Assembly: GCF_963675165.1 (NCBI RefSeq)
Contig: NC_087388.1
Coordinates: 4,283,047 to 4,347,046, forward strand
Origin: Halichondria panicea
Lineage: Eukaryota > Porifera > Demospongiae > Suberitida > Halichondriidae
DNA: 64,000 bases
Reading direction: 5' to 3'
In this document: piece by piece, positions 2,377-54,999 of the stretch
Layout: the number at the start of each line of letters is the position of its first letter
How positions within the stretch are numbered: the first letter of the stretch is position 1
Position numbers and translations under genes: made by a program
Notes under the pieces: generated by a model
Seen by the model: the letters and a program-made list of their open reading frames with translations, nothing else
Database searches by the model: none
Told to the model about the DNA's origin: nothing

Positions 2377-5300
2377 ATGTCTATAAATAAAATCCTCTCA
2401 ACAACAGATGAGGTCCGAACATTTGACAACACATCTATATCTGATATCGTCAACACTAGCACTGCATCCAATGGCAGGTATTTAATAGGATGACTCTATA
2501 ATTTATACCGGGACGGTCTCATACTCGCACATTAGTGTGTATTGGGGGTTTCGGATCAGTGCTTTTTGTATGCTTAGACCACTGATTGGGTTTCGTATCA
2601 GCGGTGTAAGTGTTACGTATAGTTCAGTGACCTTTCTAGTAAGCATACTAACTGAGTTTTCTGATGTAATAGTTTGTTTGGATCTCTGCCAAGAAGTGCA
2701 TTACCCGTGAGAACCCATTAATATCTGTATTATCGATCAGATTCTATACGTATTGCTCTCTTGCTACAGAATTGCTGAGCAACCCAAGGAAAGGATACAA
2801 GTAGTCGGAAACATCAGTCAGTTCTCAAGCGCTCAGGAGAAAGAAAATTTGAGATTTATTGTTGGAGGTATACTCCTACATCTAGAGGAAGAAACCCCTG
2901 AGGAGATTTTCAATCTCTTACTTGACAAGTACGAGACTTCTACACCGTCTGAAGAAGAACCGACAATTTCAACTGAACTTTTTCGCGAGGCATTAGAGTG
3001 TGCCATATCTAATTGTACTAGTGATAGTGCGAGTGAGACTGCGTCCCGTCTTAAAAGTCTCGAGCCATTCTGTGTCTCGGGAAGTTTTGAAAATAAAGAA
3101 AACATAACAGCACAATTCTGTTTTCGAAAGCAACTCCTTAAAATAGGATGTCAAATAACTACTGATGATGAACTTAAGAAGATTGTTGACAAGTTTGAGG
3201 AAAAGGAGTTGGGTAAAAATAAAGATGATGTCAAAACTCCAATGGAATTGTTCAGATGCCTACTGCGTAAGGGAGTCATTTCACCGGATGATCCTTCATC
3301 AATTGTTTCTTTTGAGCAGAAGCTAGGAATTTTTAAAGGTATAATGCATACTTGTATGAAATGTATTTTTGTGTTTACTGTTACAGCAGTATAAGGTCGT
3401 GCATGTACGTGACAGTAATAACCTATGTGCCTTCGGTCAACCTGCATGAATTGAATAGCGTATTATGTGTGCAAGTCATGTGTGTATGATTTGGACACAC
3501 ATAATTTTATATTGTTTGTTATTGTTGGCTTTTGTAAAGGTCACCTCAGTAGCATTACTATAAATGAAGTTGTACTTTTGCAAGTACATGTAGTTGCTGA
3601 ATTAAGCGCTCCCAGATTATAATTGATTATCTGTTATTATCATACAGTGGAACCTCCATAAAATGGACACCATTAGGGAACAGCCTTTTGGTCATTATAG
3701 AAAGGTGGTCTTATTTGAGAGGTTTGATTGCCATCCGCATGCAAGCAGGCCGGATGTGCCCACACTGCATGGTCGGGGTGGTCGGTATAATACTAACCAC
3801 CTCCATAATGTTTGCTGATTCAGGGTGTGATCTGGGAGGTTATTTTCAATAGCTAAAGCTGATATTGGGGACTAGAAAGTTGCTCGTTGACGGAGTAGAG
3901 AGCTGCGTGGCTGTTCCTAAGAGGTTGCTTTACAAAATTATTGTATAGTTTCAATCCTGACCCGAGTTTCTTGGCCGTTTTATAGTGGGTAGTTGCTCTT
4001 TGAAGGTGGTCATTAGTAGCTAGAGGTTCCACTGTAAATTATTTTCTGTTCTCAGTAGTTGTGTTGACCAAGCGACCTACTGAACAATATAGATTTATAC
4101 GTATTACTAATTGTGTACGTAAATGGTCACCATTACCGTACAATGCTCCAGAGTAATTGTGTATGTGTATAGCACATACATAGATTTGAGTGCTGTAATA
4201 TTCTATGTATACGTCGTATCTAATAACATTGATTTCGTTTCTCCTAATTAGTACATAAAATCATGTATACTTTTCTACTGACATGCAGCAGCAGGTGTTA
4301 CAACTTCGGCAAAAAGCTTCCAAGGTAACAATATCCACATAGATACCATGCATGTACAATCATACTGTATAGTACGAACACCTGCATAGTACGAACACCT
4401 GCACAGTTTTTATTTTGGGATTGTCATTGTATTATGCTGTATGCTGTGTTTTGTATTGTGCAGCTCTAAGCAGCGAAGGACATGCAGTTGATGGAGGGTG
4501 TGGTGAGTCTCACGCAAGGCTTTATGGGTAACTCGTAATATAATTTATGGTGGGCTATGCCAGGGACAAAGAATCATGAAATTAAGGAGTCCTAACGGAG
4601 TGTTATGGTTCTGTAATAATTATAGGCTGGGGATGCCTATTGTTTGGAGTGTATAATTCAATAGATTTAGTCCCCCATACATTATAGAGATTTCGTTTGT
4701 GTTCATGGAGCTCCCAATGAGCTGCTAGTTTCTTTTTGTGCTCCTAGTAAACATTATGATCGAGTTATTCGTGAAATCCATTTTCTTTGGTAAGTATTCG
4801 TGAAATCCATTTTCTTTGGTAAGGAGAGTTATTTGTTGTTGGTATATAGATTTATGGATACATGGATGAGTAATTATTGAATTAACTTCTTTTTTTCACA
4901 GGTATGCATACACAGAAAGGATCGTACAGCTTCAAAAGTATTTCGTGTAAGTTATTACTATAGTCATACATAGGCGTGCATTATTAAGCAAGGGCGCCTA
5001 TAATCCCACATGAGGAAGGATATGTGCGCTTATAAGTTGAAGAGCGCCTAATAAGAAAACTTTTAGTGTATGTCATTTAGAAAACGAGTGAAAGCAGAAC
5101 TTGTGCTCAATGGCTGTGTATATGAGTGTCTAAATTCAAGCAAATTTTAAAATATTTTAGCGTATACCTTGTCACAAAATTTATGTTTTAGGTTATTATG
5201 CTTTCATCTTTTCCACTTACAGGTCTATTCGTTATTGTATTCTACGTGTTTGTAGCCGTGGCCCTGGTCGGATTCAGCCTCTACTGCGTCTGGCTCAGTA

Positions 5301-6154
5301 GCACCCAATCCCACACACAAGACGTGCTGTTCTACAGAAACAACACTATACTTGTAGCAAGAGAACCACTGAGTAGCGCTTTCACTGAAAGAGTGAACTT
5401 CACTCTAAATTCAAATCATCAGTCTGACCTTCAAGTTTGCTACTACGACTGTACGAATATCTCGCCGCAAACACGCTCCGTCTCAGTCAATGTGTCGAGA
5501 AGTAGCAGCCATGACCAAAAAAAGCCAAGCAGTAGCCAACGGAGATTGGTGATGTTTTCAAATAGTGTTGAAGTTACATTTGCTAGTGTCTTCATGCTAG
5601 GTGGTTCAAGTGTTGTCTTTTCGGTAACTGGCTTGAACCAACAGATAGAACTCTATATCCTGACTACCTTTGAACAGTGTAAATCCTTTTTGAGAGGATT
5701 TGACAACTCAAGCTTTGAACGTTTCGAATTAAACGCATCCAATGACTACAGAGTGAATTTTGTGGTCCCACAAAGTCCACACAATAATTATTGTGGTGCT
5801 TGGGTGATCCCACCAGAAATAATGAATGCAACATTTCAGTACATGATCAAAGGATTTCGAAATATTTATAATCTTGAGAGCTCTGTCAGCTCGAATGTAA
5901 CATGTGTGTCACCTTTCACATCACCCTCCTATAATTTATATATCCCCATATCGTACACCTTGAGACGCATGTGTGTGTTTTTAGCACAAATGGACCACAA
6001 TAGTTTTACTACTGGAACAATACAGACTTTTCCTACTCTTAAAAATCCTCTGTTTGGAGTTCCTATGAGTATTGGTAGTTTTTTATTTTTTATATTACCA
6101 ATAATTATTTGTTTTGTGATCAAATGGGCTTACAAACAGTGCAATACTTCGTAA
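2377..6154 (+). CDS. Gene A: two-pass membrane protein with tandem DED-like cytosolic domains
   Basis: Six exons: 2377-2477, 2770-3338, 4289-4324, 4464-4502, 4902-4946 and 5223-6154 (573 codons plus stop). The spliced frame is open throughout. Residues 34-223 form an all-helical region with two DED-like cores (ELFREALECA, then TPMELFRCLLRKGVI followed by acidic and hydrophobic helices), as in tandem death-effector domains. Three micro-exons (12-15 codons each, all phase 1) form a linker. The last exon codes TM1 (LFVIVFYVFVAVALVGF, about residues 265-287), an ectodomain with several NxS/T sites and paired cysteines, TM2 near residue 550 and a tail of about ten residues. No signal peptide is seen, so the N terminus is probably cytosolic. 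An acceptor-like sequence precedes the chosen ATG, so a further upstream exon is possible. It is paralogous to gene B and is followed by the small partner gene a. Ligand and function are unknown. Confidence 0.75.
3647..4034. repeat. TIR repeat element in gene A intron 2
   Basis: The ends ACAGTGGAACCTCCATAAAA and the inverted TAGAGGTTCCACTGTA form short terminal inverted repeats around about 390 bp without an ORF. It looks like a MITE inserted in the intron between the DED-like exon and the first micro-exon. Confidence 0.55.
4782..4823. repeat. 29-bp tandem direct repeat
   Basis: Two adjacent copies of a unit reading TATTCGTGAAATCCATTTTC followed by TTTGGTAAG lie in the intron of gene A between the second and third micro-exons. 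Both contain GGTAAG, a donor-like sequence, but no matching exon is seen. It is probably replication slippage. Confidence 0.6.
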
Positions 6155-6524: not shown

Positions 6525-6583
6525 GGGATTTCCCCTAACCTGGGTTTACAACTGCATGTTACATAGTCCCTGGGAATTTTTCC
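6525..6583. promoter_or_regulatory. NF-kB-like sites upstream of gene a
   Basis: GGGATTTCCC (6525-6534) matches the kB consensus GGGRNNYYCC exactly. A second, imperfect site, GGGAATTTTTCC, follows at 6572-6583. They lie about 130-190 bp before the ATG of gene a and upstream of a TATA-like TATATAAG. Binding is inferred from sequence only. Confidence 0.45.
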
Positions 6584-6710: not shown

Positions 6711-7899
6711 ATGCTTTCTTCATTCGAAGTGATTTACTCGTTCCTTCAAACTGGTTTCCTTGCTTTTGCTGTGTATCTTTCAGCAATCATTCTTAAAACA
6801 TTGCTGCCAGGAAAATCTCTGCTTTGGTTTTGGTTCAATCATACACAGTCTGAGTGTCATGATGCAGATGAATGTATTGATGGTGGAGGAATTGATGGCA
6901 CTGATGATGCCGGGGATCCTGACAAGATCGTATCCATTGTGCTTCAAGTCCCTCGTATTTTGCCAACCACTTCCCCCACGACATCAATAAGTAGTGTGAT
7001 CGACAGCTTACTGGAGCCCATTGATGAAGTTGTCGATAACATGCTGTTTACTTCAAGCAAGTTTATTTCTCTTAATAATAGTGTTCAAGAATGTGTCGAG
7101 GTGAGTTCCTCTATTATATGCATGCATGTTTATAGTGCACAATACTTAGTGTAATGCATGTGTTAGTGCTTGTATATACACTTCATTTTACTATATATAC
7201 CGTATAAATTCTGTTGGTAGGAAGTGATGGAGAGAAACAACGAATATAATTGGAACTCTATTGTGGATGTGCAAGACTGTTATTATTCCAGTGGCATCAT
7301 TCAGGACACACTCAAACCAGTCGTAACTATTAAAGATATCTACTACACTGGGTCTCCACGTCTGGAAAACGATGAGGCTATTTTTAAAGAACTTTTTTGT
7401 GCATTGACTGAGACTCTTTGTTCCAAAGTTTGGAATGGGAAAATCCAGTAAGTTATAATAATTATAAGTGCATGCATGTAGAAACTTGCAAGCATAGATT
7501 GATAATTAATAGTGTGGCTATAAGAGTGCAATAGCACATCCGGTCTAGTAATTGCACATCGTCATTGACAGCATGCAATTACCTGTCAAGTAATTGCACG
7601 CTGTCAATGACAACGTATTGTTTTCGAATAATGACCGCGGTCGAAAATATTAATAAAACTGCAGAGAACTTAATCATGCATTCACTATTAGCTAATAGCT
7701 TCAAGTTGGTTTGCTTTATAGATCTTACATTAATAATTATACATGCATGCACCCCTCAACATTTATTGACTTTTTTCACTACAGTGTGACTAGTACAAAG
7801 AACAAACAAAGCCCTCGGCTTTCGACTAGATTTTCTTACGCGTCCACTTTTCAAAAGCCTCATCTCAGGAAGGTGGATACCATAACACTACGTAACTAA
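6711..7899 (+). CDS. Gene a: small three-exon partner protein, unknown family
   Basis: Exons 6711-7100, 7221-7447 and 7785-7899 (243 aa). The product is not recognised. It belongs to a four-member family here (a, b, c, d) defined by the same intron phases (0 then 2), an N-terminal DPDKI or equivalent segment leading into VLQ-P or SI-IP, a middle exon with a W-x-V strand, and a third exon starting with VT or VY followed by a basic, serine-rich tail. Uniquely among the four, gene a begins with a hydrophobic stretch (about residues 5-40, including LAFAVYLSAIILKTLL) that could be a membrane anchor, then an acidic segment (DADECIDGGG). It lies 557 bp downstream of receptor gene A on the same strand. 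Downstream of the ATG the frame is open across both splices. Function unknown; a role beside gene A is inferred from pairing only. Confidence 0.6.
7515..7640. repeat. Dispersed repeat fragment (TGCAATTAC family)
   Basis: Short arms such as AATTGCACGCTGTCAATGAC repeat here in both orientations and recur in the longer copies at 40935-41290 and 63744-64000. It is a truncated copy of a palindromic element inside gene a intron 2. Confidence 0.5.
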
Positions 7900-8791: not shown

Positions 8792-11700
8792 ATGTCATTC
8801 ACTCTGAATGGTGTGTATACTAAAACGTACGAAGCTCGGAACAAATGGCGAAACATCCTTCTGGCTCTGAAAGTGGACCATGCTACCATTGACAGCATTG
8901 GTGCGAAATGGCGAGACAATCCTGACGACTGCTATCGTGAAGGACTGGGCGTGTGGCTGAGAGGTGAGGAGAAAAGCTGGAAAGATGTGGTGGAGGCTTT
9001 GTCCAGCCATACCGTTGGTTACAGTGGCATTGCCCGGGCCTTAGAGGAAAGCTACGTACACCAAGAGGAGAAGAGGGGTGGGACAGGAGATCAAACAACA
9101 GCATCAAATGTTGTCCAACATGACTCACCCCATGACAGGTGAGACCTTGTTTAACTTTTGTGGTAAATTGTTAGGGAAGTTTATAACCACACCAAGTGGC
9201 AATTTAGTTTCAAGCTCTATATATAATATGCCGCCCGCATTCAAATTTGCAACTACTTCCCTGATTTGAGGATACCATATAGCAGGTATATTTCGAGGGT
9301 ATAAATTTTCGCGGATGTGCCTTTAGAAAGTTTTTTGCAGATTTAATTTTCGTGGAATAGCGCCTTTTTTGCAGCATGCATGCATGAAATATTCAATTCG
9401 CGGTTATAAATGTTCACGGTTCATGCCTAATCTGCGAAAACCACGAACATTTATACCCTCGAAATATACCCTCTATACGGTAATCATTGCATACGTAGTA
9501 ACATAAAATGTCATTTGCGTGCCGGCAAGATGTCATGTTAAAGTTGTTAGTGTGAGCATAGATTGAAGAGAAAGGGATTGGCAACGAAGTGCACTTCCGG
9601 TACCATCCGTGTTTCACCTTGAGGCTTACTTCTAACGTGGGAGCCTAAACATGATAAGAATTGTTTTTGTCGTCTGTAAAAAAGTCTACGAGCAGTTCTG
9701 CTGCTAAACATCAACTTCACCTCATTTGTGTGGCCATTTGGGACATAGCACACTACTTAGTAACACAACCTTAGCTCTATCATAGGTGCTATAGGAATTA
9801 CACAAGCATGAAAAAGCCTCTGACAGAGGCTCTGTGTACCTCTAGCTACTTCACGAAAATCAAAAAATTATGTTTTATTTATTTCTGTGATACCTACCAT
9901 CAGGGGGCATGTGTTTAAGTGCTGGAGGGCTTTGAGAAGTAGGCATTAGACACAATAAGTTTCCCGGGTTTTCGCGGGAGTTTTAGGGCGAAATACGGAT
10001 GGTTTCAGGCCCATCTGTGTACATTCAATGTAAAAGCATCACGTGAACTGCTTCCGTTGCCAATTCCTTTCTCTTCAATCTATGGTGTGAGCTTGTTTTG
10101 AAGCCACACAAGCTAATTTTATGATAAATTATGACATCATAATATCCTATATATCCTCCCCCGTATCTATATCTGCAAGGAAGGGAAGCTGAAACTAATT
10201 TACCTAGGAGCTTTGAGTGGCCTAAGCTCAATTCACCAAAAGTATACAAGTGCATGGTGAAGTAACGACCAATGTAGTATAACTGGATTGTCACTGTGTT
10301 CTCTGCTCGTATCACAGCTCTACACCTGTATCCAGTTCTACAAGTGAGGAAAGTGGAATGGATGTAGGTCAAACCACACCCAATCCTTTACTAACAGCCA
10401 CTGAGGCCGTTGAGGAGAGTGGAGGTCAAGCCAAAGTTATTGCAGCTTTAGCGACCGCGGATGGAGATCAACTTTATTGCCAAATCCCGAAGCAACAATT
10501 CCAACCAGGTGTGTAGCACATTTTTACCTCAAGGTGTTTATATAGTGCTTATTTATTGCATTTTTCTGCACCACATACATAATTATATAGTGTCTACTGT
10601 TAGTGCCACTGACGCCACCCAGAGTAGTCATGACGAGAGTGGTAACGAAAATCAGGACGAACCTTTAGCTTCAGCACGTCCAAGACGTCCAAGGTATGTG
10701 TGTAATCAGTAACTGTAATGTACGTTGGTTACCTACATTACAGCTTTTTAGTGTACATGCACGGTACTGGTATTGCTGTCACAATTTCCAACCCCTTGCA
10801 GCAGTGCTTTTGACAAACAGGTTAACTCGGACATTGAAGGTGTCGTGACAAGAATAAGTCCACTGATTAGTGATGTAAACACAGAGAGGTTGCAATTAGT
10901 TGCTGAAAGTATTCTGGATGAAATTCTCGATGGCAAGAACGCTCTTGAGATTTATCTAAAAATTTCGAATAAGTATGAGTCTCGTGGACAAGCAAGTTTT
11001 GCAGCAACTCTCTTTCGGGAAGCCCTTATATATGCAACCAATACGAAAGAAGTGAAAACCCGTTTCAGTCACCTCAACGACCTTTGTGACCCTGAATGCC
11101 TAACGAAACAGATTGCGTTACTAGAGATGTTGAAATCACGGCAAAGTCTTTTGGAGTTTGGGGACAATGAATTAGGTGGAATGCAACTAAACGCTTTCGT
11201 TGAAGAGTTTAAAGACACTGAATTGGGTACGTCAAGAGACAACATTACAACACCGACAAAATTGTTCAAGTGCTTGCTTCGTAAGAACGTGCTACCATCA
11301 CAGTCACCTTCAGAATGGATTACAATATTGAAGACAAAGCTGTCTAATGCAAAAACAGGTATAATACTGAATGTGTCGATATTGTTTGGGATACAATCAC
11401 ATTCATACTACTAAATTAATATTATGTGGCTGAGAAGATGTGTATATATACACCTGGGATTTGCTAATCACATGCCCCAACTTGGTATTGTATCATACTA
11501 ACCTACGACACGTGTATCTCGATTAGTAAAATTGAGGTATTTGGTCACATGCAACAATGGCTTTACTGTTGCATTTTACACATTACTAGGCCTATAATTG
11601 AGGTATACTCGTAACTCTCGGTCTGTCTGTTTATGCTCTATGCATACTACGATTATATGCTCTTAACTCGTAAATACTACATTATGTGGAGCTGCATGTA

Positions 11701-14700: not shown

Positions 14701-17700
14701 AAAAAGATGCACATGGCTCATATCACAAAATTACATTTAGCGCCGCTGTTTTAAGCTGCTTGTCACTACACAAACACTAAGTTTGGCGCCCCTCTTTTAG
14801 CTTATTGCCACACAAACACAAAGTTTAGCGCTACTCTTTTAGATTATCGCCACACAAACACTAAGTTTAGCGCCGCTTTTTAGCTTATCGCCCATTTTTG
14901 TGGTACATACTTTTGTATGCCATAACCTTGTCAGTAGTATACACATGCATAGTTATTATACCCATGCATCTTTGTAGGTCCGTCACAAGACAAATTACCG
15001 AGTCATGAAGGTGAGTAACATACCAATCTTTAATTAACACATTGTGTAGAAATTCAATTATAGAGTGGTGTTTAGACGATTCTTAATTAGTAGTAGTACT
15101 TGCACTGTAATTATAGTTTGTACCTTAATTGATCTAGAGGGAGAGACAGTGAAGGAGCAGCTTTTACCAAAAACGTGGAAAATTGGATTGGCAGTAGTAA
15201 TAGGTGTGTTTATATTAATAAGGACAAGCAAAGTGAGTTATTTGGTTCTCAACCTTTTCAGCAAAATTTGATGTAAGGGGAAGCAACTTTTTTATCAAGA
15301 AAGGTCACAAAGTTTAAGTCAGGCATATCAAAGGTCAATTTTTAAGCCATTAAATTTTGTTTTGACGATCTTTACAGCCTATCGCAATAAAAAGGAGATA
15401 TAGTGGTGTAAAGAAAGTGGGAACCAAGTAATTTACTTTGTCTGGCCTAATACTTTGCACTTGCAGCTATATAAGGAACGAGTGGTGCAAGCTGCGCTAT
15501 GCTAATGCCTCTCGCCATGTTTTGCTTTCGCTCTAGAGTGATATAGAAGAGGTAACTAGTTATGCCTCGAGGCGTAGCCGCACGAGGAATACGGTAAAGC
15601 TGACTGTGTGTGTGTGTGTGTCTGTCTGTCTGCGTGTCTGTTCCAGCTGTAACTGCTCAACGGTTGCAATGCAACAAAAACTAACAACTTCTATAGGCTT
15701 TTAGCCATGTTCACTGGGATTTTGATTCGTGGATTAGCTAACTAAAGCTTTTTTCTCTAGTTTGACTCACATTGAAGGCTATTGCAGTCTCTTCAGAATC
15801 TTTCATAGCATCATCCGTTCGCACAAACTTTCTATTCAACATAATAATGAGTTAACCTTGCACTAAAGCGCTAGCTTTTTGTTAGCTACAAGAGTCAGAA
15901 AAGATCTGTTAAGCATCTACCTATAGTAGTCACTTGTGAACTTGATCTCTTTGCAGACACACCCTTTAATAATTATTCCTGGATGTAATGCGCATGCGTG
16001 CTCACCCTGGCAATTAAGTGACTCTGATGAGGTTTCCACAAGGTTGAACGAACTTACTTATTTTTCTTGAGGTCCTGATATACCAGTAAGCCACAATGAT
16101 ATACCATATAGAATAGATAGCATGTACACAAGTCTGGTAACAATAGATACATGTACACAAGTATTTTCTCTGCTTGTTTAGATATACTGTGCTCTGTGCC
16201 TATGACAAAGGTTTGCTCCCACTATTTGGCTACAGACCATTATTTTGCGTTGTTTCAGTATCGTTGAAGATTATTCATCAAGCCATCAGATATAGGCTTC
16301 TGCCATTCAGCTCCTCTCCTATAATATGACTGTCTGTAATTCAATTCTGTCAACAATTGCAATCAACAATAATAACATATAATTATACCTCTTCACCTCT
16401 TCTAATGAGTGAAAGCAAAACAACAGCGAGAGGCATTAGCACAGCGCAGCTTGCAACACTCGTTTACTTTGCAGTGGCATAGGCAGAGAGGGGCTGATAA
16501 AGCTGGAGCCTCCCCCCCCCCTTTTAGGCTCCAGAAACTCCAACTCATTGGATCTGTCATCTAATCCTAGTAGATGGAAAAACTGTTTACCTTAGTAAAA
16601 TATCTTTTTTACGCTTTATTTGTCCTGCTCACGCAATAACGTTTTATGGTAACAAGAACCCCAGTTGAGCACTGCCCACCAAAAATCCTGGCTACCCCAT
16701 TGCAATGTTAATGTAATGTTTAGTAGGATATACCACACCTACAAAAGGATATGCACTCATTTATCCTTCGCTACCGTGGTTACTTCGAGGCGTAGGTATG
16801 TAACCACGATACCAGGTCACCCCTTCCATCTTTGCACATTAAAGCAGATAATTTTAATTAACGAATAATTTTCTTTTCGTGTAGGGATGCAAATTACCCA
16901 CAAAAACAGAGAAAATTAAGCCCTTCAAAAATTTAGCGGTAGATCAGGGTGCCTCATTGTTTTTGCTTGGTGATGAAGTTGCACATATTTTCATTTTTAA
17001 AGGAGCTATAGCTAACTGCATGTAACTTTACATTTCCCATAACTTTATACCGAACGTTTTCTACAGAAAAATAACTGCATGCCATTGTTTGTTTTTCTTC
17101 GCAGGTGTTCTGCTGGCAGCCATCTTTGTATCCCTACTCGCTTTCAGCTCTACATCTGGCCTATCTAGTCAAGGGTCCCACTTTGAAAACACAAGCCTCT
17201 GTAGAAACACGACTATATTGGTATCAAAACGTCTCAACACTCAATACTACGAGAGAATCATGTTTACACTCAAGCACGATATTGCAGAATTTCCAAACAT
17301 AACAACATGTGTGTTTGACTGCACCTATTCTGAACCACAGCTTTTTACTGCATTTGGGACCCACAACTTAACAAGTACCCACTCTGCTGTTTTTGATCCC
17401 CTCCCAACTCGTAGATACGCTCACATTCGTGAGAGTCATAATGTTCCAGAGCTAATATACATGTTGGAAGGTTCTACACTTCTGTTTTCTCTTAATAATG
17501 ATATTCCAGTGCCTCTACAACTTCACATACTAACATCGGCTGAGCAGTGTAGAGACTTTTACGCTGGGAAAATAAACTTGAGTGCTAGAAATTTCTCACT
17601 AAATGAGGCCAATAACTATACTGCTAATTTCACTGTACTCCCTGGTGAGCCCCCCTCATACTACTGTGGTGTATGGGTGATCGATTCGAATGTTACATTT

Positions 17701-18039
17701 AATTTCGCTGTTGAAGCATCTGTTGTAGCATACAACGTAAACTTTTACCAGCAGAGAGGATTTTGTCAACCAATATCGACACCATCATGCACCTTAACCT
17801 TTCCTTTATCTATTTTAGAGAGATATACATGTGTTCTGCTTTCTCAGCTTAACCCTTCAGCAACTGTATATAGTGCAAAAGTAGACGTTCAAACAACTTT
17901 TCCAAACCCAATTTTCAGTCTGTTTATTTCTCTTTGTGCTGTAGTTTTTACAATTATCATTGTTTTAGGTTTAAGTTGTGTTGTTCGGAAAGTTTGTAAA
18001 AGAAACCTTCCGACTCGACAATCATGTAGATTTAAGTAG
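8792..18039 (+). CDS. Gene B: two-pass membrane receptor with Death domain and tandem DED-like domains
   Basis: Nine exons: 8792-9138, 10318-10508, 10591-10693, 10802-11358, 12260-12319, 13029-13073, 14164-14205, 14978-15010 and 17105-18039 (770 aa, open throughout). Residues about 9-92 are a Death domain: W19, the IDSIGAKWRDNP segment, WLRGEEKSWKDVVEAL, then VGYSGIARALE. A Ser/Thr/Glu-rich linker follows, then a DED-like pair (about 214-399) with TLFREALIYA and TPTKLFKCLLRKNVL, paralogous to gene A. Four phase-1 micro-exons make a linker. The last exon gives TM1 (VLLAAIFVSLLAFS), a Cys-rich ectodomain with many NxT/S sites, TM2 (FISLCAVVFTIIIVLGL) and a basic tail. Death-fold domains recruit caspases or adaptors through homotypic contacts in other animals; here that is inferred. 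An upstream non-coding exon is likely. Introns are loaded with MITEs and a tandem duplication that copied exon 7 into exon 8. Confidence 0.8.
9276..9483. repeat. Palindromic MITE (CGTATAG-family)
   Basis: The ends ATACCATATAGCAGGTATAT and its near-complement near 9462-9483 enclose inverted copies of a TTTCGAGGGTATAAA segment. It resembles elements near 35.3, 35.5, 37.4, 51.1 and 52.4 kb that share a terminal TACCGTATAGC-GG core. It sits in gene B intron 1 and has no ORF. Confidence 0.6.
11970..12085. repeat. Dispersed repeat fragment (GCGAGGTATACGGTAGTGTG family)
   Basis: The sequence GCGAGGTATACGGTAGTGTG followed by a TG-rich run and GAGTTTCTATAGGCTTCTA recurs near 28350-28460 and, more divergently, near 15560-15700 and 30170-30310. 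It lies in gene B intron 4. Confidence 0.5.
12364..12595. repeat. TIR element ending AACCTCGATTAT
   Basis: GAACCTCGATTATACGG at the left and CCGGATAATCGAGGTTC at the right are terminal inverted repeats around about 230 bp. A related element lies at 52584-52870. Non-coding and intronic in gene B. Confidence 0.6.
13146..14107. repeat. Large TIR element with internal minisatellite in gene B
   Basis: The left end (ATGGCATACGATTTG...AAAAGTATGCACCACAAA) and the right end (TTTGTGGTGCATACTTTTGT then ATGCCATAA) are inverted repeats. From about 13187 to 13400 there are four to five tandem copies of a 42-bp unit starting GTAGCGACAAGCTAAAAGAG. Diverged inverted copies of the unit recur near 13960-14070. 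No transposase was seen. The right half is duplicated downstream (to 14932). Confidence 0.6.
13600..15110 (+). repeat. ~0.8-kb tandem segmental duplication carrying a gene B exon
   Basis: About 13600-14290 and 14390-15110 are tandem, diverged copies (shared landmarks include GTTGAGGAACATATCCTCAG and the exon sequence CGTCACAAGACAAATTAC). Exons 14164-14205 and 14978-15010 encode matching cores (SQDKLLSDEG versus SQDKLPSHEG), so the duplication added one micro-exon to gene B in frame. Confidence 0.7.
15470..16470. mobile_element. ~1-kb TIR element (GCATTAGCACAGCGC ends) in gene B
   Basis: Inverted ends near 15480-15540 (GCTAATGCCTCTCGCCATG) and 16405-16465 (GCGAGAGGCATTAGCACAGC) flank about 0.9 kb that includes a TG-rich run at 15605-15640. 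A right end of the same family lies near 30610-30670. No ORF resembling a transposase was found, so it is a non-autonomous DNA element. It occupies gene B's last intron. Confidence 0.55.
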
Positions 18040-42349: not shown

Positions 42350-45300
42350 TTAGTTGATAGTAAGATAGTTATAGTTTTTCTTGTTTCTAGCTTTCACACC
42401 ACTACATACACACGAGCAAGCACAATAGAAGCATAGCAAAAGTACACACAAAGCAGATAGACACACGAGTGACAGTAGTATAATAGTATACATGTTCCAG
42501 AACCCACGGTATACGTTGTACTCTAAAGTCACATAGTACGATTCAGCCACTTCGTGGGGAGGAATGGAATAAACTAAAACACAAGTTTTCAGCGTGTCAG
42601 TGTAAGTATCAGTTGAGCTCGGTGTGAAAGGTACGGTGCAGGAATCAGTAGATGTTAGTACACATACAGGGGGTGGGAAATTGTCTCTTGAGTAGTGGAT
42701 TTGATGGACGATAACTGTAAATTGTAAGTTGACAGGAGAATCAGGCCTGAGTCCAATAAAGTAGTAACCAGTGTTAACAATTGTTAAAGAAAGTGAATAT
42801 GTTTTTTCTTTTTCGTTAACTTGTATTGGGTACGTTTCATAAGCATCAGGTTTATCACCTCTTTGGAAAGCTTCATACTGTTGCAGATTGTTGTACAGAA
42901 CAAATTCTATTGTTGTGTTTTGGGTTCTAGTCGGGAAAAAAATTGCTGTTAATTTCACTTTGGAGCCGGATATGAAATAATAAGGTGATAAAATCACGTC
43001 ATCGCGTGTAGCCGTTACGTTACCTGATGAGATGTTAAAATAATTATCGTCCACGATTAAATTTTCAGGGTAGAATGAATATACCTCAACTGTACACGCA
43101 GGACAACGATTGTGTTTCGATTCTTCAATAGTGATTTTATTATAGTAATATGTATCGAAATAATCCAACAACACCATATTTTGATTTTCGACTTCGATTA
43201 TTTGAGAAATTGTACCTGGAACAGTCGATATACGTATCAATATTGAGCCAAATGTTATTAGAGCAGCTGCATTTCCAAAGAAAACCACCAGAACGATAAG
43301 TTTCCAACACTTTAGTCCACTTTTTACTGTAGGGGAGCAAAATACACAGTTGAGATACAATTATGGATTATATACCCCACTTGGGGTCTGTATCATAGCA
43401 ACTGGGTGGGGTTTAACTACCATTAACCCCCGCATTCCTCATAAACTTCCTTGCCTTGAGGGCAAACTGATTCTATACTAGATCTACACAGCTAAAAAAA
43501 AGCTAACATTTGTTGACAAGGGCAGGACAGATGGGTGGGGCTCACCGCTTGGACTAGTACAAAGGCTTATAGCGCTGGCTACAAGCTGTACGGACAAGCT
43601 TTTTGCTCGTGTTTTCAATAGTTTTTAAGACTGTTAGCTAGTTGTATCCAAGGTGAGATAGAAAAAATCATTCCAGTGGGTATATAACACTTATTGTCCA
43701 CTACATCAGAATTTATGGCAGTAAACCTCCGAGGACGAGGGTAGTTTTGTAGGTTGTATATACACAGTTGAGATACAATTATGGATTTTAGAATAATTAT
43801 ATCCAACAAGTGCGTCTTCCTACGTATGCGTTGACAAATTGACTTAATATGCATGCAATCTGGCTTCTCATTAAATGCCTAGAGCCAACAATCTTCCTAA
43901 CAACAATAATTATGAAGATAACAACAATATGAAGCAACATCTTAAAACTCACGTACATTTGTTATTTTTCTTCAGCAATGGTTCCAGTTCTGTACAAAGT
44001 AAACAAACATTGGTAGTAGCTAGTCCATATTTCAATTAAAGTGGTCATTTTAGGGTTTGTGGTGTATGTAACTAGAAGAGGAATTTCCCTGGGAAGGTCC
44101 CCTTATTGTGAGATAGCCAGCTACAAACGAGGTATACAGGAACGAAACTGATACATACATGTACACTGTACATAATAGGAACAAACACTAGAATACAATC
44201 ATAGAGCTATAATAATTACAATGTATATATGGAATGTGGAATGCACTTTGTGTATTTAGAGGCTTTTATTTTATTTTATAGAGAATAACAACTAACTATT
44301 AGACTGAAATCCTTACAGTCATAAGAAAAGCACATACGAGCTAGAGTATAAATAGGAAGTAGAGACTAACTATTGATGGCATAATAATTAAGTCATATCC
44401 TACTATAGCCTCGGTCCCAGGCCGATTTTTTTTTAATAGAACGAAGTTGAAAAATACGGCCTGGTATTGATTGTATCTGGGCGTGGCAGGAACAGGAAAC
44501 AAAAGCAGAGATTCTTTACATTTTGTTTCCTGCTTTTTTTCTGTAATACTAAAGGTGTACGTAGAGGCATTTTACTCCCGTAAAAGTTACAGTAATTTAG
44601 CTCCGTGTCATGTTCTCAATTTATAGCTAGCTAGCTATGGCATGCAACGCGTTGTCTTGTTTGAAGCAAGATGGCCTCACTCTCATGGCAGAACAGGCCC
44701 AGGCTCTCAAGCTCCTGTTTGAGGGAAGGGACGTGTTTATCTGGTTCCCAACGGGGTATGGCAAGTCTCTCTGCTATATCAGTTGCTACCCTTTTTAATG
44801 GACTACAAGCTAGGTAGGACCAAGGCTCCTCCTGTTGACAAAAGTGTTGTTCTTGTTAATTGTCTCTCCCCTTGTATCTCTCATCATGAGACTCATGATT
44901 GACCAGATCAGGAGTCTAAACAATAGAGGTGTTTCTGCTGCCATCCTCAGTAGCAATAAAGGAATCGACAAAGATTTGGTTGCCACTCCCAAAGAAGTGT
45001 CTTCTGGGAAGTATTTCCTGCTGTATACTGCCCCAGAGGCTGTTGTTGAAGACCACTGTTGGAGGATTCATTTTTTGTTGTACCACGAGTCAATTTGTTT
45101 TATGTATTAAAAAACCACGCCCAGATCACGCCCAAATACAATCAATACCAGGCCTAGTAGGCGACCTAGCGTTCAATTGGAGACGGATCGGCCTGGGGTC
45201 GAGGCTAATCCTACTACATATAAACGCACAAACATAATAATATGCATGATCTCACTGTTTTAGTTTGTCTGGAAGACTCACCAGTTTCTGTTGTACCTAC

Positions 45301-45830
45301 ACTGTGTAAGTTCTCAGATTGAGAGGGGTACACTCTGACTGAGTTATGAGGTCGAGTCACCTCTTGTACTGGAAAAACTGAGAGAAAGCACAAAAATGTG
45401 AACACTATATAATTTATACTAGCACACTGTATATATTAATACTGTGGAAGTAGTGATTTGCTTGTGGATAAATATCCTAATCGTCATGCACACTTCACTA
45501 GCTGAATCAGATAAAAACATTGTAACATTATAATAAGACTTCAATCCTTTATATACCGTCTCCAGCTTTTATAGGTCCAGTTGTTGTGTGATTTTTAGCT
45601 TCAAACTCGACATTATGCGATACTTTGTAGGAAGTGAATGGTTTAACTTTGGCCACGTCTTCACCAGGAGTTGTTACAGCAGATCGGCCAGGCACAAGTG
45701 CTGATTGTCCTTGTCTGGTGTCAGTAACTTCTAGGGACTTAGTTCTCAGTCTGATGTCATCTGATTCAAACAATGCCGAGTCACTGTCCAGGAGTCCAAC
45801 ACTAGTGCTTTCATCATCTTTGTAATCCAT
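42350..45830 (-). CDS. Gene E: two-pass membrane protein with GQSALVPG-containing tail
   Basis: Minus-strand exons 45830-45557, 45377-45282, 43989-43957 and 43326-42350 (459 aa, all junctions phase 1). The start MDYKDDESTSVG was chosen because it aligns with gene C. Residues 1-134 are a flexible cytosolic tail with LEVTDTRQGQSALVPG. The 33-bp third exon (ELEPLLKKNNK) matches the gene C exon DEETPLLSTLLRR in position. The final exon has TM1 (KLIVLVVFFGNAAALITFG), an ectodomain with CPACTVEVYSFYPE, YYFISGSKVKL, several NxS/T sites and CVLVYSIPP, then TM2 with a Cys-rich segment. The RecQ-carrying transposon sits in intron 2. Convergent with gene d, repeating the c-C layout. Function unknown. 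Confidence 0.75.
44080..44101. promoter_or_regulatory. Pair of relaxed NF-kB-like decamers in gene E intron
   Basis: GGAATTTCCC and GGAAGGTCCC, each fitting GGRRNNYYCC, are separated by 2 bp and lie about 90 bp upstream (in gene E direction) of its third exon. Their intronic position makes a promoter role uncertain. Confidence 0.3.
44405..45208 (+). mobile_element. Mutator-like TIR element carrying RecQ helicase exons
   Basis: Runs from TAGCCTCGGTCCCAGGCC to GGCCTGGGGTCGAGGCTA and is flanked by ATCCTACTA on both sides, a 9-bp target duplication. The plus strand carries a helicase-like start (MACNALSCLKQDG...) with the Walker A sequence FPTGYGKSLCY, then motif-Ia-like VSPLVSLIMRLMIDQIRSLN and LLYTAPEAVVEDHCW. 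A stop follows the first part (CYPF), and an intron-like or deleted junction separates the two pieces. This is the longer of two copies; the one at 315-932 lacks the Walker A part. No transposase gene is present. Confidence 0.8.
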
Positions 45831-46373: not shown

Positions 46374-46387
46374 GAATAAAAGACAAA

Positions 46388-50096: not shown

Positions 50097-53000
50097 ATGA
50101 GTGGTGATAGTCAACCCAATAATATTTGGGCTCAAGGCAATTTTAATGGTACGTTTTCCACATAACTTTATTTTTCTGCACTCATTATTAATATACGGTT
50201 GGTGTGCCGTATAGCCGGTAATTTTCGGCAACTACAAAAATATTATCCACGAAATACTGAACCACGAATATTTTGTCCCCCATAATTACCGGCTATACAG
50301 TACGTAGAATGACAATAACTTTTGGGTTTATTACAGCCGGTATAACAGTTGTGACTGATCCCACTCCTGGTACTTCCCCGGAAGATGGAACCCTTAACTC
50401 TCAAGATGTTGCTGGTGATGGTGGACACTCTAGAGGCACTTTAGACACTGCTCAACCAGGTGTGTGGCTTAGTACGTCATCCTATTCTTATATACATAAC
50501 ATGTGTACTATCTTAGTGATGGATGTGATGCGCCCGCATGTTGTTGTATCTAAATACGAGTGGTCGATAACAACCTGTTGACATAAGGATCGAGGCATGT
50601 GACAATGCATGCCTATGAATATTAAAGTGTTGTAACTACTAGCCTAGCGCACATCCATTTATAGGCAAAAATGGATGCTGGCTTGCATTATGTCAACATA
50701 ACTGTATTTTCACTACAAGGGGCTGTTCACCATTCCCCAGGGGCTTGTGTCTTTGAACAGACCTCATTTCATGGACAGGCCTCAGAGGATGTGGGTTATG
50801 AAGTTGATGATGAAAATCGACCTGTGGAGAAGTTGGAAACAGGTATAATTATTGTCATCAAGCGTTGTTTTTATCCTGTTTGCTCTTAGTTTTTCAATGT
50901 ATTTTATTAGTGTTTGTTTTTCATTGTACATGTAGGTAAACAGGCTTTATTGTATGGCCTGACTTTAAGTGCTCAAGAAAGTCATGTACCAGCTTATGAG
51001 GTTACACCTGAAGAAACTCAAACAGGTACATGCTTATACAATACTGTGCATGATGTATCGTATAGCTGGTAATTTTCATGGGGCCAAATATTCGTGGATG
51101 AAGCTCTGAACCATGAATATTATACTCACGAATGAAGCAACCTTGCCTACTTTACCTGCAGAAGCAGCAACCACAAAAATATTATCCACAAAGTTGACTA
51201 AATATTGCTCAATGTTTTACCCCCCGAAAATTACCTCCTATATATATGGTATGTATACAGTGAGGCATAAATTATTATAATACTATGTTTTGGGGCTGAA
51301 GAAAGGATTTTGTTGACTGAATGTTACTGTCACAGGTCTCCAAGTGATTCGGTCATGTGTGAAAGCAAGTCCGAATGCCCTTGGGATGGCTCTGGTTGTC
51401 AGCCATCAAGATGTCCACTCATCACAACGTCTCGATTCTCTCGCAGGGATCGATTGTGGAGCCCAGCAACTAGAAGAGGCATTCACAATGTGCGGTTTGG
51501 CTGTTGTACGTCTTGTGAATCCAACAAAAAGGGAGTTGCTCGCAGTTATAAGAGCAATGATTTTGGACAGGGCGGACCCCATGGCTATCGAGTATCCCGC
51601 GTCGTATAAATACTTCTTCTTCTACACGACAGGCCATGGAGCAAACAAAGTGTTCTTCACCAAAGACGGGTCCATTTCGTACCAGGATGTGTATGACCTG
51701 TACCAGGGTTTTCTTTGTCAAAGATATTTCTTCTTTGACTGCTGTCGCTCTATCAGGATAGACTCGATGAGTTTGTACCCAAATGGAGATCGTGTCCTCC
51801 CTCCCTGTCTTGAATTCTCAATTGATCCCTACAATTGTGTTATCTATGCAACCGTTAGTGGGCAGCAAGCATTTGGACCAGGAGATGGTGTCTCCTTTAT
51901 GACAAAAAAAATGGTGGGTCTTCTAAAGAAGCAGATACCCATGAACAAAGTGCTGTATCGTCTTCAGGAAGAGGTAAATGATGCAACTGGGGAAATGAAG
52001 CAAGTGGTGGTGGTTCTGAATGCTACTCCTATATATAGCAAAATTCATCTTTGGAAGGAACAGGAGCAAGCCAGTGAGTTCTGTATAGTTTTGTAGTATC
52101 TAGATATGAAGCTTGTGTTTTTACATGTATTGTAAACTTCTTGTCTTTTCGTGTGCATGGTCTATAATTTGTTTCACACAGCTAACTTACTGCAGTTCAA
52201 TCCTTTCAGTGAATCCAAAACTTCAAGTTGTGCCCCATGTTTCTCGAGACAGTGCTGTGGTGTACCTTTCTGCCGAATTCCCTGCACCAACTACCACCTC
52301 CAAATTCCATCATCGAAAGAGCCTTCAATTTCAGGTACATAATTATTGTCGATTTGGCTGTTATTGGCTAATTACATAATGTATGTAACGTACCGTTATA
52401 GCGGGTTATTTTCTTCGTATGGTGGAAATGTTAGTATAATTATTTCGAATATATATATATCGTACGAAAATAAAATTATTCTACCGCAATATAGGTTCAG
52501 CGTTACTATTCTGAGCTGTACGAATATTTAAAATACTTAATTGGGTAGTTCATATGAAAATTTGCACCAACAAAAATAACCCGCTACAGTAGAACCTCGA
52601 TTATCTGGCCCTCCATTATCTGGAACCTCAATTATCTGGCTTGGCAATTTCTTTTAATAATTCAGAAAATGGGCCTGCCCTTAAATGCGCATGCGCGTTG
52701 CAGCTGTTACTATGAAGACAGGCCTACTTATCTTCTGTGCATGCGCACACAACCATGTGGTTCTTCAATAAAGTGGGTGGATCAAGGCGTGGTTTGTCTA
52801 TTCGACTATCCGTTATCTGGCCAGCTGTCTCTGGAACCAAGGTGTCCAGATAATCGAGGTTGTACTGTTTACGGTAGTCTGCTATCATGTACTTAGATCC
52901 GTGATTACTATTGCAGCAAATCTTTTGTTGAATGAACAGTTGCACACCTACAATCGTTTTATGTAGACCTGTTTTTTCTTCTTTTATATATAGATGAAAT

Positions 53001-54999
53001 CCCAGACTGGAACTTGGATAACTTTGTCTGATGAGTATCAGGAATCTTCTGACCCTGTTAGTATACCCCAGCCTGCAAGACGTAGGGCCAGCACTGCCAC
53101 GACTGCGTCTCAGCCCTCATATGTACCTCTTCAAGAAATTGCTTCGTACGAGAGAGGCCGTGATCTAGTGAGTCCTATAAGGCCAAGTCACTACAACAGT
53201 AACCAACAAGCCCCGAATGTGTCCCAAGTTACCCGTGCTCTGAAGATTCCTGTGACTGAAGTAGGGAAGAGAATGACCGAGTTCAGAGTGGTATCAAAGC
53301 TAAACGGAGGATTGGAGCTAGAGTCAAACACTGTGTTTGGGATTGTTGATCTAGGTATGATATCTTCACATTGATAAACCAAGCAAGCTAGGTGCATTGC
53401 ATTGTTATTTTGATTTCTATACACGCTGAATCAATATAGCTCTAGTGCGTTAAGCAGACTAAGGCTCCATAGCCTTTACATTAGTTCACCCCCCCCCCCC
53501 ACACACACAACACACACACACACAGTTCAACCAGTGATTTGTAAACATGACTCGGTAATCGAATTCGAGGGCAGCCAAGAGCCACGAGTCTCCATATGCT
53601 GGACTATCCGTCAAGTACCATTCACGATCTCCTACCAGCAATTCAGCATTCGCGTTTTCAAGAAGGGCAAGCAGGGCAATCTTCAATCAGTTTTCTCAAA
53701 GAAAATTGATTTCGACCCCCAAAAAGAGCATCATAAAGAGTCTTTTGATGTGCCTGATTTGAGTGATGAAACTGATGGGGATACTTATTTGGTTGTTGTG
53801 GAGGCCAAGCGAGTGGATGGTCAGACTGTTTGCAGTGAAAAGACCTCTTTGAAAACCTCTAAAAGTATGTGGAGTATCAGTATGGCTTCTGTTTTGATGT
53901 TCTTTATTCTTGTACATGTATATAAAACAGCATGGCGTATAAGTACTTATCTTGTTTTCACTGCATACATGTGAATAATTGAAGATTTTGTGTTGCAGGT
54001 TTCTGTCTCAACTGGCAACGCTTGGTTGAATTTGTGGCCTTTGTTCTTTTTTTAACTGCTATAATTGCTCTCCTATCAAGTATGATTGGCATCAACACTT
54101 CAGAAATGAATGAGTACAGGTACAATGCGTCTGCAATGTTGTCGTATACAACGCTTGGAATTCCAACGGCTCAAAGGAATGCCAGTTTCTTTGATTGTCT
54201 CCTGCACTTCGACTACAAAAACCAACAAGTGATCAAACATAAAGACATAGATCTCTACTGCGGTCAATTTACTAAGTTACAGCTGGCCAATAGTCGGGCA
54301 CCAAAGTTCTGTGGACCCAATGATATCGAGATCAATCAGCGAAACAAGAAGCTTGAGGTGCCTGTGGATTTCCTCCCAATTGGTAGTAGCATTCCAAGTG
54401 CTATAAATCTACTACCACGATCGATATTCTCCGTATATCTTTGTCTATCAGCACCTGTAGATGGAACGATTGTATTCGAGCTTTATCGGTACGAACACTT
54501 TACAACCTGTGAGCCTCTACAAAGGAAAGCCGTGACTTTTAATTACTCAACTTCTTGTAGCAACACCTCTCTCAATGTTTTGGAACCCAACCTGGTCATT
54601 GGTGCACTGTCGACAAATAGTACCATCCATCCGGAATTCACAATGATCCAAGGATATGTCCAGCAGTATTATTATGATGAGAAACATCTTGGGCTGATTA
54701 ACGACACTTACCTTGTAGGAGACCAGCCAAAAACCATTCCCGGGAGCATCGAGACAGAGCTAGTGTGTTATGCGAATGGAGATCGTAGCCGTACTGTTTT
54801 CTTGCATCTCTTCAGTGTACTTGTTCCGACTGCCTTGACACTTTGGAAGGTGATTGTGATTGCGACTACTGCCCTCGTGCTTGTTGTTGCGTTTATTTTC
54901 TGTGTTTTTCGCCGTACCCTAGTCAGATTCGTGTGCAACCAGTATAGACAGTGTAGAAAAAGGTGTGGACACAACTCATACATTAAACTTAATAACTAA
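50097..54999 (+). CDS. Gene F: membrane-tethered caspase-like protein with one FN3-like doublet
   Basis: Nine exons: 50097-50148, 50337-50459, 50720-50842, 50936-51025, 51336-52073, 52210-52334, 52994-53354, 53526-53864 and 53999-54999 (983 aa, open). Residues 1-129 are low-complexity. Residues 130-375 are a C14 caspase-like domain: FYTTGHGAN with catalytic His (about 230), FFFDCCRSIR with Cys (about 266), and IYATVSGQQAFGPGDG as the small-subunit-like part. Then comes one A-B doublet of FN3-like units (FRVVSKLNGGLELES; TYLVVVEAKR); here the A unit is split by a phase-0 intron, unlike gene D. The last exon has TM1 (FVAFVLFLTAIIALLSSMIG), an N-glycosylated Cys-containing ectodomain with VQQYYYDEKHLGLIN (VKQFYYDETSLDIVN in D), TM2 and a basic Cys-rich tail. 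The N terminus is probably cytosolic. It lies 158 bp upstream of a kinase gene on the same strand. Confidence 0.8.
50205..50300. repeat. Short palindromic MITE (CGTATAG family)
   Basis: GCCGTATAGCCGGTAATTTT and the inverse ATAATTACCGGCTATACAGT bound about 95 bp in gene F intron 1. Confidence 0.6.
51058..51250. repeat. Palindromic MITE (CGTATAG family)
   Basis: CGTATAGCTGGTAATTTTCA at the left and AAAATTACCTCCTATATATA at the right, with CACGAATATT-type arms as in 37423-37640. It ends about 85 bp before the caspase exon of gene F. Confidence 0.55.
52392..52588. repeat. Palindromic MITE (GTTATAGCGGGTTATTTT)
   Basis: ACCGTTATAGCGGGTTATTT is mirrored by AAAATAACCCGCTACAGTAG. Inner arms contain TTCGTACGAAAATA. 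It lies in the intron that splits the FN3-like A unit of gene F. Confidence 0.6.
52584..52870. repeat. TIR element ending AACCTCGATTATCTGG
   Basis: GTAGAACCTCGATTATCTGG at the left and CCAGATAATCGAGGTTGTAC at the right. Related to 12364-12595. Directly adjoins the preceding MITE in the same gene F intron. Confidence 0.65.
53490..53525. repeat. Poly-C/CA microsatellite forming a splice acceptor
   Basis: A run of about 12 C followed by CA repeats ends CACACAG, and its AG is the acceptor of gene F exon 53526-53864. The usual pyrimidine tract is replaced by this microsatellite. Confidence 0.65.

Follow-up and report, generated by a model that had tools for sequence, protein, structure and literature searches.

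A sponge family of predicted two-pass membrane proteins carrying DED-pair, caspase-like or tail modules

In textbook extrinsic cell death, a receptor, a DED adaptor and a caspase are three molecules that act in series. The gene family described here, from the sponge Halichondria panicea, resembles the Fas/FADD/caspase-8 system in that our working model involves receptor clustering, DED assembly and proximity activation of caspases; it differs in that receptor and DED module, or receptor and protease, would be parts of one protein with two transmembrane (TM) segments, and members D and F would need no adaptor. Death receptors of the TNF-receptor type have one TM segment and a C-terminal cytosolic death domain, in contrast to the two TM segments and N-terminal modules found here, and Pfam gave no match to TNFR Cys-rich repeats in 12 family ectodomains.

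Other described proteins share parts of this design. A Trichodesmium metacaspase carries a CHASE2 receptor domain between TM helices and, like D and F, has an N-terminal caspase-fold protease predicted to be cytosolic and a TM-flanked receptor domain outside; it differs in being a bacterial metacaspase with CHASE2, four TM segments and no death-fold relatives, and the two ectodomains were compared through Pfam only, with no match (PMC3501461). In Crassostrea virginica, proteins with the order Cys-rich ectodomain, TM, DED and TRADD-N are, like the sponge family, lineage-specific membrane proteins with a cytosolic DED, but they have a single TM segment with the Cys-rich ectodomain N-terminal to it and the DED C-terminal to it, as well as TRADD-N and C-termini that vary (PMC8195603). 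The same source describes an expansion of death-fold/TRADD-N proteins in Amphimedon, with variable C-termini and some caspases; this too is a sponge shuffling death-fold units with effector domains, although the section describing it mentions no two-pass ectodomain and lists ankyrin, SH3-LRR, kinase, caspase and other C-termini (PMC8195603). A literature search exclusive of preprints and most subscription papers retrieved no description of a two-pass or TM receptor with a caspase or DED, including in passages of PMC8195603, PMC3501461, PMC12909245 and PMC6792448.

The window, a stretch of 64,000 nucleotides, contains six open frames of 320-338 aa, each corresponding to a TM1-ectodomain-TM2 exon: A (5192-6151, + strand), B (17026-18036, +), C (22036-23028, -), D (37687-38697, +), E (42353-43360, -) and F (53983-54996, +). 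In each frame, some 240-250 residues separate two strongly hydrophobic segments (best Kyte-Doolittle mean 2.1-3.3). The six ectodomains measure 239-248 aa, and that of A includes an additional weak hydrophobic stretch (1.66). Hydrophobicity, gene models and family profiles delimit last exons of the type TM1-ectodomain-TM2-tail at 5223..6154 (+) in A, 17105..18039 (+) in B and 22033..22994 (-) in C; they do so too at 37721..38700 (+) in D, which has a terminal YxxPhi motif (YTLV), and at 42350..43326 (-) in E, with YxxPhi in the tail. The last exon of F, 53999..54999 (+), delimited by hydrophobicity and gene models, also has YxxPhi in its tail, and its ectodomain is linked to the family via D. 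The six TM-ectodomain-TM frames, with their phase-1 acceptors, confirm that six genes share one last-exon type. In all six genes the module exons lie upstream of, and share a strand with, their TM exon, and they differ as the preliminary description had stated: DED in A, death domain plus DED in B, GQSALVPG tails in C and E, and a caspase domain followed by a/b doublets in D (three) and F (one). The gene finder was trained on the window; micro-exons predicted in A, B, D and E were left out of the parts list, and the stretch 6711-7447, which the gene finder joined to B, was treated as separate.

Within the window, sequence comparison linked only the pairs A-B, C-E and D-F, with A/B weakly tied to C/E; pairwise BLAST, shuffled alignments, two-row hhalign and a four-row HMM gave no link between D/F and the other four exons, and the other window pairs are only 11-18 % identical to E, so that a ligand common to the members would be speculative. 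The tie of D/F emerged only once outside members were added. The array first presented as six-membered does comprise six members in the window, but seven further family frames (G-M) lie outside it, six on the same contig (C12) within 0.28 Mb and one on C11; M is a partial frame for which TM1 was not found. Gene-finder models of H to M were fragmented and were used only for splice sites, as well as for the tail of G. Single-protein genome searches, a kind that can miss members, listed no family member at 4,357,001-4,478,000 of C12.

With a profile of four outside members only (H, I, J and K, no window rows), the four best-scoring of 250 window ORFs were E, C, D and B, and 0/1000 shuffles scored as well for B, C, D or E. 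Against this profile, 108/1000 shuffles were as good for A, falling to 0/1000 with an HIJKLCE profile, and 210/1000 for F, which larger profiles brought to 2-44/1000; with the largest profile, D did slightly worse than before, at 1/1000 shuffles. Leave-one-pair-out profiles recovered B (8.7e-10), A (0.0031), E (2.5e-12), C (2.5e-11) and D (0.0015). The proposed sharing of an ectodomain thus holds for B, C, D and E by the outside profile and for A with more rows, whereas F's probable membership rests on D and not on its own ectodomain score. Taken together, these comparisons support a single two-pass exon type with a homologous ectodomain of ~240-275 residues across the family. On the ectodomain tree A/B, C/E and D/F are firm pairs, each with its own module type; "interchangeable", the term first applied to the modules, is therefore an overstatement, as modules mostly follow these pairs.

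The ectodomain had no match in Pfam (12 members), a 12-row profile found nothing in PDB up to E 10, and C/E queries of GTDB genomes and IMG/VR yielded no confirmed relative. A pilin match seen with a six-row profile (0.0086) vanished with 12 rows. AlphaFold modelling of the last exon of F from a six-row alignment reached a mean pLDDT of 45; neither this model nor that of A's DED exon, both built without outside members, had a trustworthy match by Foldseek or VIA-align (best Z 5.2). UNC119/PDE6D-like, glycosidase and TNF-like structure rows from these comparisons were not counted as evidence, and the models were too poor to confirm folds.

Charge distribution in the 12 members (K/R at 56/270 residues on predicted cytosolic flanks vs 20/360 on ectodomain flanks) supports a predicted N-in/C-in topology. 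For the glycosylated ectodomain first proposed, N-glycosylation sites are in clear excess over shuffles only in B (p 0.0045) and F (0.02); A is at p 0.06, and C, D and E have no clear excess.

The DED-like pairs are supported as death-effector domains. Gene A has its DED-pair exon at 2770..3335 (+), with a phase-1 donor (AAAG|gtataa); Pfam DED matches its second half at 3.4e-5, below cut-off, and not its first half, and a profile of outside DED exons ranks it first among 250 window ORFs (3.7e-7). The exon of B (10802..11358, +, phase-1 donor) was recognized by its likeness to that of A (31 % identity); it has no direct Pfam DED match, ranks second with the outside profile (0.034) and would join the DED family only through A. 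Across the family, 7/8 exons match Pfam DED at E <= 0.1 (best 1.6e-8, all below the curated cut-off for the whole frame), including 6/6 outside exons (1.6e-8 to 0.019), and that of I reaches 37.0 bits in the genome search, above cut-off. FADD and c-FLIP are the best PDB relatives, FADD being matched by the eight-row profile at 2.3e-4; a two-row profile found no DED in PDB (best 1.5). The AlphaFold model of A's exon from a two-row alignment is helical (pLDDT 60) and had no Foldseek match. In 6/13 frames (A, B, H, I, J and L), on two contigs, the TM exon follows a DED-pair exon of the same strand, so the combination of DED pair and two-pass exon looks like the basic architecture.

In gene B, a death-domain exon (8792..9138, +), whose joining to B is a prediction only, was identified by a family profile that matches FADD in PDB (six rows, 0.003), which sustains the death domain first noted there; Pfam Death matches 3/6 family members (best 0.0057), B's own exon not being among them. 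This type of death domain has at least 150 scored matches in the genome, itself included, and the donor of B's exon is in phase 2, that of five relatives in phase 1.

Homology was computed for the ectodomain, DED, death-domain and C14 exons, as were exon order, strand and phase; from these we infer that the exons are joined in mRNA and that the products reach the surface and act as receptors. An unlikely alternative is that the TM exons encode two-pass proteins of their own, while the DED, death-domain and caspase exons belong to soluble adaptor or protease genes of the same cluster. Such genes do occur: a free DED-pair gene with its own stop (Gn) adjoins G on the opposite strand and has an intact copy on C4, and no TM exon was found downstream of the H2 DED exon in the DNA examined. 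In-frame ATGs ahead of TM1 in A, D, H and I (in A at 5198 and D at 37699, within the TM open frame but before its acceptor) also fit separate neighbours, as do the introns upstream of the TM exons, which at 1.9 kb in A, 5.7 kb in B and 3.1 kb in D could house gene ends. Against them, order and strand are identical in 6/6 DED cases on two contigs, and the DED exons of A, B, H1, H2 and J have donors in phase 1, matching the phase-1 acceptors with which the TM exons begin in A-H, J, K and L. In the window, the phase-1 acceptor lies at TM1 or just ahead of it in 6/6 TM exons, B having a second, weaker one in phase 2 at 17067, and the interval to TM1 lacks Met in all six; G, J, K and L likewise have no Met ahead of TM1. 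The intron between the FN3-like and TM exons of F (phase 1) is just 134 bp. Frame I has a phase-1 acceptor only inside TM1 and a weak donor, and L's DED frame ends with no recognizable donor.

We lean slightly towards a two-pass receptor family with cytosolic termini, in DED-pair, tail and caspase forms, that would signal by clustering. Both termini would be cytosolic, and an often glycosylated domain would lie outside between the two membrane helices. The commonest form would have a DED pair ahead of TM1 (A, B, H, I, J and L), to which B may add a death domain; in D and F its place would be taken by a caspase-like domain followed by spacers of FN3-like type, and C, E and G would have a tail only. 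Ectodomains might be clustered by a ligand or by a like molecule on an adjacent cell. Clustered DED pairs would then seed a DED assembly and draw in DED proteins from the cytosol, potentially including the products of two loci on C10 where DED pairs adjoin caspase domains, whereas in D or F clustering would itself place the attached protease domains side by side, with no adaptor. We infer clustering and protease activity, together with an outcome that might be cell death, immunity or self-recognition. The initial observation is confirmed and its overall interpretation partly supported, the better reading being a DED-pair receptor family of more than six members, one branch of which bears caspase domains while several members have tails only. 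If the exons are joined, some animals would have merged the receptor with its adaptor (DED type) or with its protease (D/F type), sensing and the cell-death signal would reside in one molecule, and the origin of death-receptor signalling would become a directly testable question.

Members C, E and G have tails only, with no DED or caspase module. Genome searches and gene models place the GQSALVPG tail exons at 24529..24766 (-) in C and 45557..45830 (-) in E, the sole similar sequence to C's exon in the genome search being that of E; these forms might act as co-receptors or dampers. A small exon predicted in C by the gene model (23536..23586, -) contains an acidic di-leucine (EETPLL), and [DE]xxxL[LI] motifs occur 23-40 residues ahead of TM1 in C, G, H, I and J (shuffle chance 0.02-0.18 each), while YxxPhi motifs occur in the C-terminal tails of D, E, F and K. 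Acidic di-leucine and YxxPhi motifs serve lysosomal sorting and also surface endocytosis. In the family they might direct endosomal routing, and both sets are compatible with a platform in endosome or lysosome membranes whose luminal loop domain senses the compartment rather than the cell exterior; we consider this quite improbable, as the same motifs also drive endocytosis from the surface.

The caspase-like assignment of D and F is supported. Their C14 exons, both phase 1-1, lie at 29177..29929 (+) in D (Pfam C14 3.4e-10; caspase-7 in PDB, 1.5e-6) and 51336..52073 (+) in F (Pfam C14 7.7e-9), score 40.4-40.5 and 35.3-36.0 bits against a curated cut-off of 21.4, and are ~31-32 % identical (E 4.5e-33). 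A PDB match of D's exon to designed "Pizza" proteins (9e-5) spans 18 residues and was attributed to chance. The catalytic His and Cys are kept, CHG/GHG and DCCRS aligning with the HG and ACRG/ACQG motifs in 17 further C14 domains retrieved from the genome. As Gly replaces the S1 arginine in both, D and F appear caspase-like and, by sequence, not Asp-specific. This Gly, along with scores (40.5 and 35.3 bits) far below the genome's best C14 domain (190.5 bits), would also suit dead proteases, in which the caspase domain serves a protein that is otherwise receptor-like only as a decoy or scaffold. We judge that somewhat unlikely, given that His and Cys are both retained despite ~31 % identity between D and F, and that S1 Arg, present in 8/17 of the other C14 domains, is absent from 9/17.

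A broader proposal, tentative and with the balance against it, is that at least 12 two-pass receptors, built on an ectodomain not described before, form a recognition complex on C12. Receptor-proteases would evolve there together with adaptor receptors of the DED-pair type and with tails that resemble decoys, possibly for sensing microbes or for self/non-self recognition. D and F would then be the first known animal receptors with a built-in caspase; we know of no other. The ectodomain family to which the locus points has no described relatives, and clusters of this type are often the genetic basis of immunity or self-recognition.

The regions between the caspase and TM exons of D and F, described as FN3-like doublets, do form exon doublets, and on C1 an exon related to F's b exon matches fn3 at 9.1e-4, below cut-off, but 0/6 window exons tested match Pfam fn3. 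F has one a/b doublet (52210-52334, 52994-53354 and 53526-53864, +), of which the piece 52210-52334 is present in one of two gene models and was picked for its likeness to D's a exon. D has three (30757..34607, +), formed by exons at 30757-31188, 31292-31612, 31723-32178, 32833-33153, 33291-33746 and 34281-34607, all phase 1-1, and its doublets include an internal 1.1-kb duplication of 93.4 % identity.

The six genes A to F (2377-54999) of the window (C12:4283047-4347046) had been described as sharing one type of last exon behind differing front parts, and both points held: each stop-to-stop frame (320-338 aa) carries two strong hydrophobic segments, TM1 and TM2, around an ectodomain of 239-248 aa, and DED pairs, a death domain, caspase-like domains and tails could be assigned upstream, their joins being predicted. 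In all six TM exons, a phase-1 acceptor lies at TM1 or a few residues ahead of it, and the upstream module likewise ends in a phase-1 donor (by computation in A, B, D and F; from gene models in C and E). In gene F, the gap between the TM exon and its nearest FN3-like exon is only 134 bp. The rival explanation that DED or caspase exons and TM exons are separate genes has to be weighed against these phases and against the lack of any Met between acceptor and TM1 in the six exons; an in-frame ATG upstream of the acceptor, in the same open frame, in A and D speaks for it. Counted over 12 family members, Lys and Arg make up 22/133 residues on the outer flank of TM1 (to which A and B contribute none), 34/137 on that of TM2, and 10/180 on each ectodomain flank, a distribution that fits an N-in/C-in topology.

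From the window alone, the proposed exon family stood in part: the pairs and, weakly, A/B with C/E are linked, D/F with the other four are not. Ectodomain-exon identity reaches 32 % for A-B, 53 % for C-E and 30 % for D-F, the last exons of D and F matching at 30 % identity with E 1e-26. Shuffle tests gave Z 7.5 for B-C, 5.5 for B-E and 4.6 for A-E, and at most 3.1 for D/F (the maximum being C-D). Two-row profile-versus-profile comparisons yielded weak signals, a profile of A, B, C and E was blind to D and F (494/1000 and 143/1000 shuffles equally good), and searches of the genome (131 Mb, 39 contigs) with F, B and E each found the pair partner and nothing else.

A genome scan for the DED family returned 31 matches, one of which (E 0.11) lay just upstream of the window on contig C12; reading that stretch added G, the seventh frame of TM-ectodomain-TM type (C12:4278416-4279525, minus; 248-aa ectodomain, phase-1 acceptor). 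With G, H and I as queries, and by reading the places found, we recovered H (C12:4495272-4496585, plus), I (C12:4515877-4517100, minus), J (C12:4483021-4484172, plus) and K (C12:4247753-4248823, plus); the same queries led to the partial frame M (C12:4244729-4245511, minus; TM1 not found) and to L (C11:2405013-2405975, minus; E 0.11 with I), which a profile confirmed (31.8 bits, 0/1000 shuffles as good). The search with H scored J at 7.0e-54, K at 1.9e-32, I at 6.5e-20 and G at 0.075. C4:6979679-6980612 carries a G copy that has decayed and is interrupted by stops, part of a copied block of G and DED pair (L033, C4:6972001-6982000) whose DED frame is intact (2020-2658, minus) and separated from the G copy by a retroelement-like frame, as judged by eye.

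The main test profile was built from H, I, J and K, with no window sequence included. Under this profile, B, C, D, E, G, L and M each outscored all 1000 of their own shuffles, and 108/1000 and 210/1000 shuffles did as well as A and F; among 250 window ORFs of at least 60 aa, its top four were E (4.9e-6), C (3.1e-5), D (0.0016) and B (0.0088). Adding L, C and E left 0/1000 shuffles as good for A and 8/1000 for F, and still larger profiles gave 2 and 5 of 1000 for F and 0 and 1 for D. With each pair omitted in turn, a 13-row profile still picked up B (8.7e-10), A (0.0031), E (2.5e-12), C (2.5e-11) and D (0.0015), and did not recover F, which is placed in the family because of its likeness to D. 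The outside-profile matches and the F-D likeness argue that one ectodomain family is very probably common to all six genes, the homology first suggested holding for B, C, D and E by the outside profile, for A with added rows and for F through D. Across 12 ectodomain members, no Pfam match was better than 0.024 and each such match occurred in one member alone; PDB sequences gave no match to a 12-row profile up to E 10.

The DED-like pairs of A and B were corroborated by a profile of outside DED frames, under which A came out on top of 250 window ORFs (3.7e-7), with B next (0.034). Pfam DED matches A's exon at 3.4e-5 (second half only, under cut-off), B's not directly, and the outside frames in 6/6 cases (1.6e-8 to 0.019, under cut-off), making 7/8 exons with A and B counted; an eight-row DED profile finds FADD first (2.3e-4), with c-FLIP and viral FLIP weaker. 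DED frames lie upstream of H, I, J and L on the same strand, thus bringing TM frames with a DED-pair exon ahead, A and B included, to 6/13; none was found ahead of K or M in the flanking DNA read. A phase-1 donor closes the DED exons of A, B and J and both near H (H1, H2), the donor being weak in I and none being found in L. Phase-1 acceptors recur in G, H, J, K and L, the sole one in I sitting within TM1. Beside G, on the opposite strand, lies a DED-pair gene that ends in a stop of its own. DED frames also cluster at C8:614001-634000, beside a frame with many tandem QYDEIVPMPTL-type tyrosine repeats resembling phospho-tyrosine docking sites.

B's death-domain exon belongs to a family of at least 150 in the genome (150 scored matches including itself, of 530 candidates), whose profile matches FADD best (0.003) and in which a kinase-like frame, by eye, follows the death domain in 3/5 fetched relatives (L005, L006, L007). 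Its donor is phase 2, against phase 1 in five relatives, and its junction with B's DED exon is a prediction. Such exons are often clustered, on C1 (15.5-17.4 Mb), C6 and C12 (5.9-6.1 Mb). The GQSALVPG tails reported for C and E are indeed exons shared by both, with no further match in a genome search; G is predicted to carry a tail only. A further rival, that the proteins form an endolysosomal platform, is to be considered beside the sorting-type motifs: [DE]xxxL[LI] lies 23-40 residues ahead of TM1 in C, G, H, I and J (5/5 examined) and is absent from the predicted A and B tails, and YxxPhi occurs in the C-tails of D, E, F and K.

The caspase-like domains of D and F were confirmed by C14 matches over cut-off, the only two on C12 among the genome's 33, with D's exon aligning to caspase-7 (1.5e-6). 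On the rival reading of dead proteases, an alignment with 17 other C14 domains points both ways: catalytic His and Cys are kept in both, and Gly occupies the S1-arginine position, where 8/17 of the others have Arg. A DED profile found no DED ahead of these exons. Downstream, D has three pairs of FN3-like exons (a/b doublets) and F a single pair. At 31280-33912, one b+a pair of D is tandemly duplicated (1.1 kb, 93.4 % identical DNA), so that two of its doublets derive from a recent duplication; dN/dS of the duplicated exons is 0.55 and 0.61. Beyond the window, a single strong relative of F's b exon occurs, on C1 (48 % identical), and a death domain (3e-5) lies ~0.5 kb downstream of that relative.

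Most likely, clustering of the ectodomains would drive DED assembly on the cytosolic side and recruitment of DED caspases, and in D/F the attached protease domains would be activated directly by proximity; steps beyond the domain assignments we infer from death-receptor biology. DED pairs adjoin caspase domains at C10:859830-862894 (plus) and C10:2921362-2923384 (minus), so candidate partners for recruitment exist. The layout nearest to D/F is that of a metacaspase from Trichodesmium whose CHASE2 domain sits between TM helices (PMC3501461). PMC8195603 describes oyster Cys-rich-TM-DED-TRADD-N proteins and an expanded Amphimedon death-fold family, some members with caspase C-termini, indicating that comparable domain shuffling occurs in marine animals. 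Text searches of the accessible literature turned up no animal receptor that combines two TM helices with a DED or caspase domain.

In a tree built from 13 ectodomains, the branches A+B, C+E and D+F are firm, the remainder being unsure with four long branches flagged. DED members fall on either side of the tree's midpoint, and the three module types require three changes (as few in 9/200 shuffles); we take this to mean that the DED form is old and that the caspase form arose once, and infer the direction. Gene order is repeated, X1 (+), C (-), D (+) and X2 (+), E (-), F (+), and X1 and X2 (20566-21475 and 40284-41806), small genes next to the TM genes, are alike (46 % over 26 residues), so the block has been duplicated. 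The X genes match no Pfam family; X-like exons, of pattern hhIKhxYPxxhGxV..LDxhLxAh, recur beyond the window at L028:1578-1871, L029:8435-8785 and L038:7649-8056. Polytopic membrane proteins with a common GLGEAGGFLFSMQ..TN (by eye) lie near cluster members on two contigs (L008:6955-8124, plus; L031:6446-7576, plus; L037:6315-7682, minus). Behind the array are two single-exon protein kinases (55125-56090 and 62654-63580; Pfam Pkinase 3.9e-31, PK_Tyr_Ser-Thr 2.1e-36). Two near-identical frames, 231-867 (minus) and 44814-45237 (plus), contain VGPRLLLLTKVLFLLIV... and YTAPEAVVED and are perhaps a helicase-like or mobile-element remnant.
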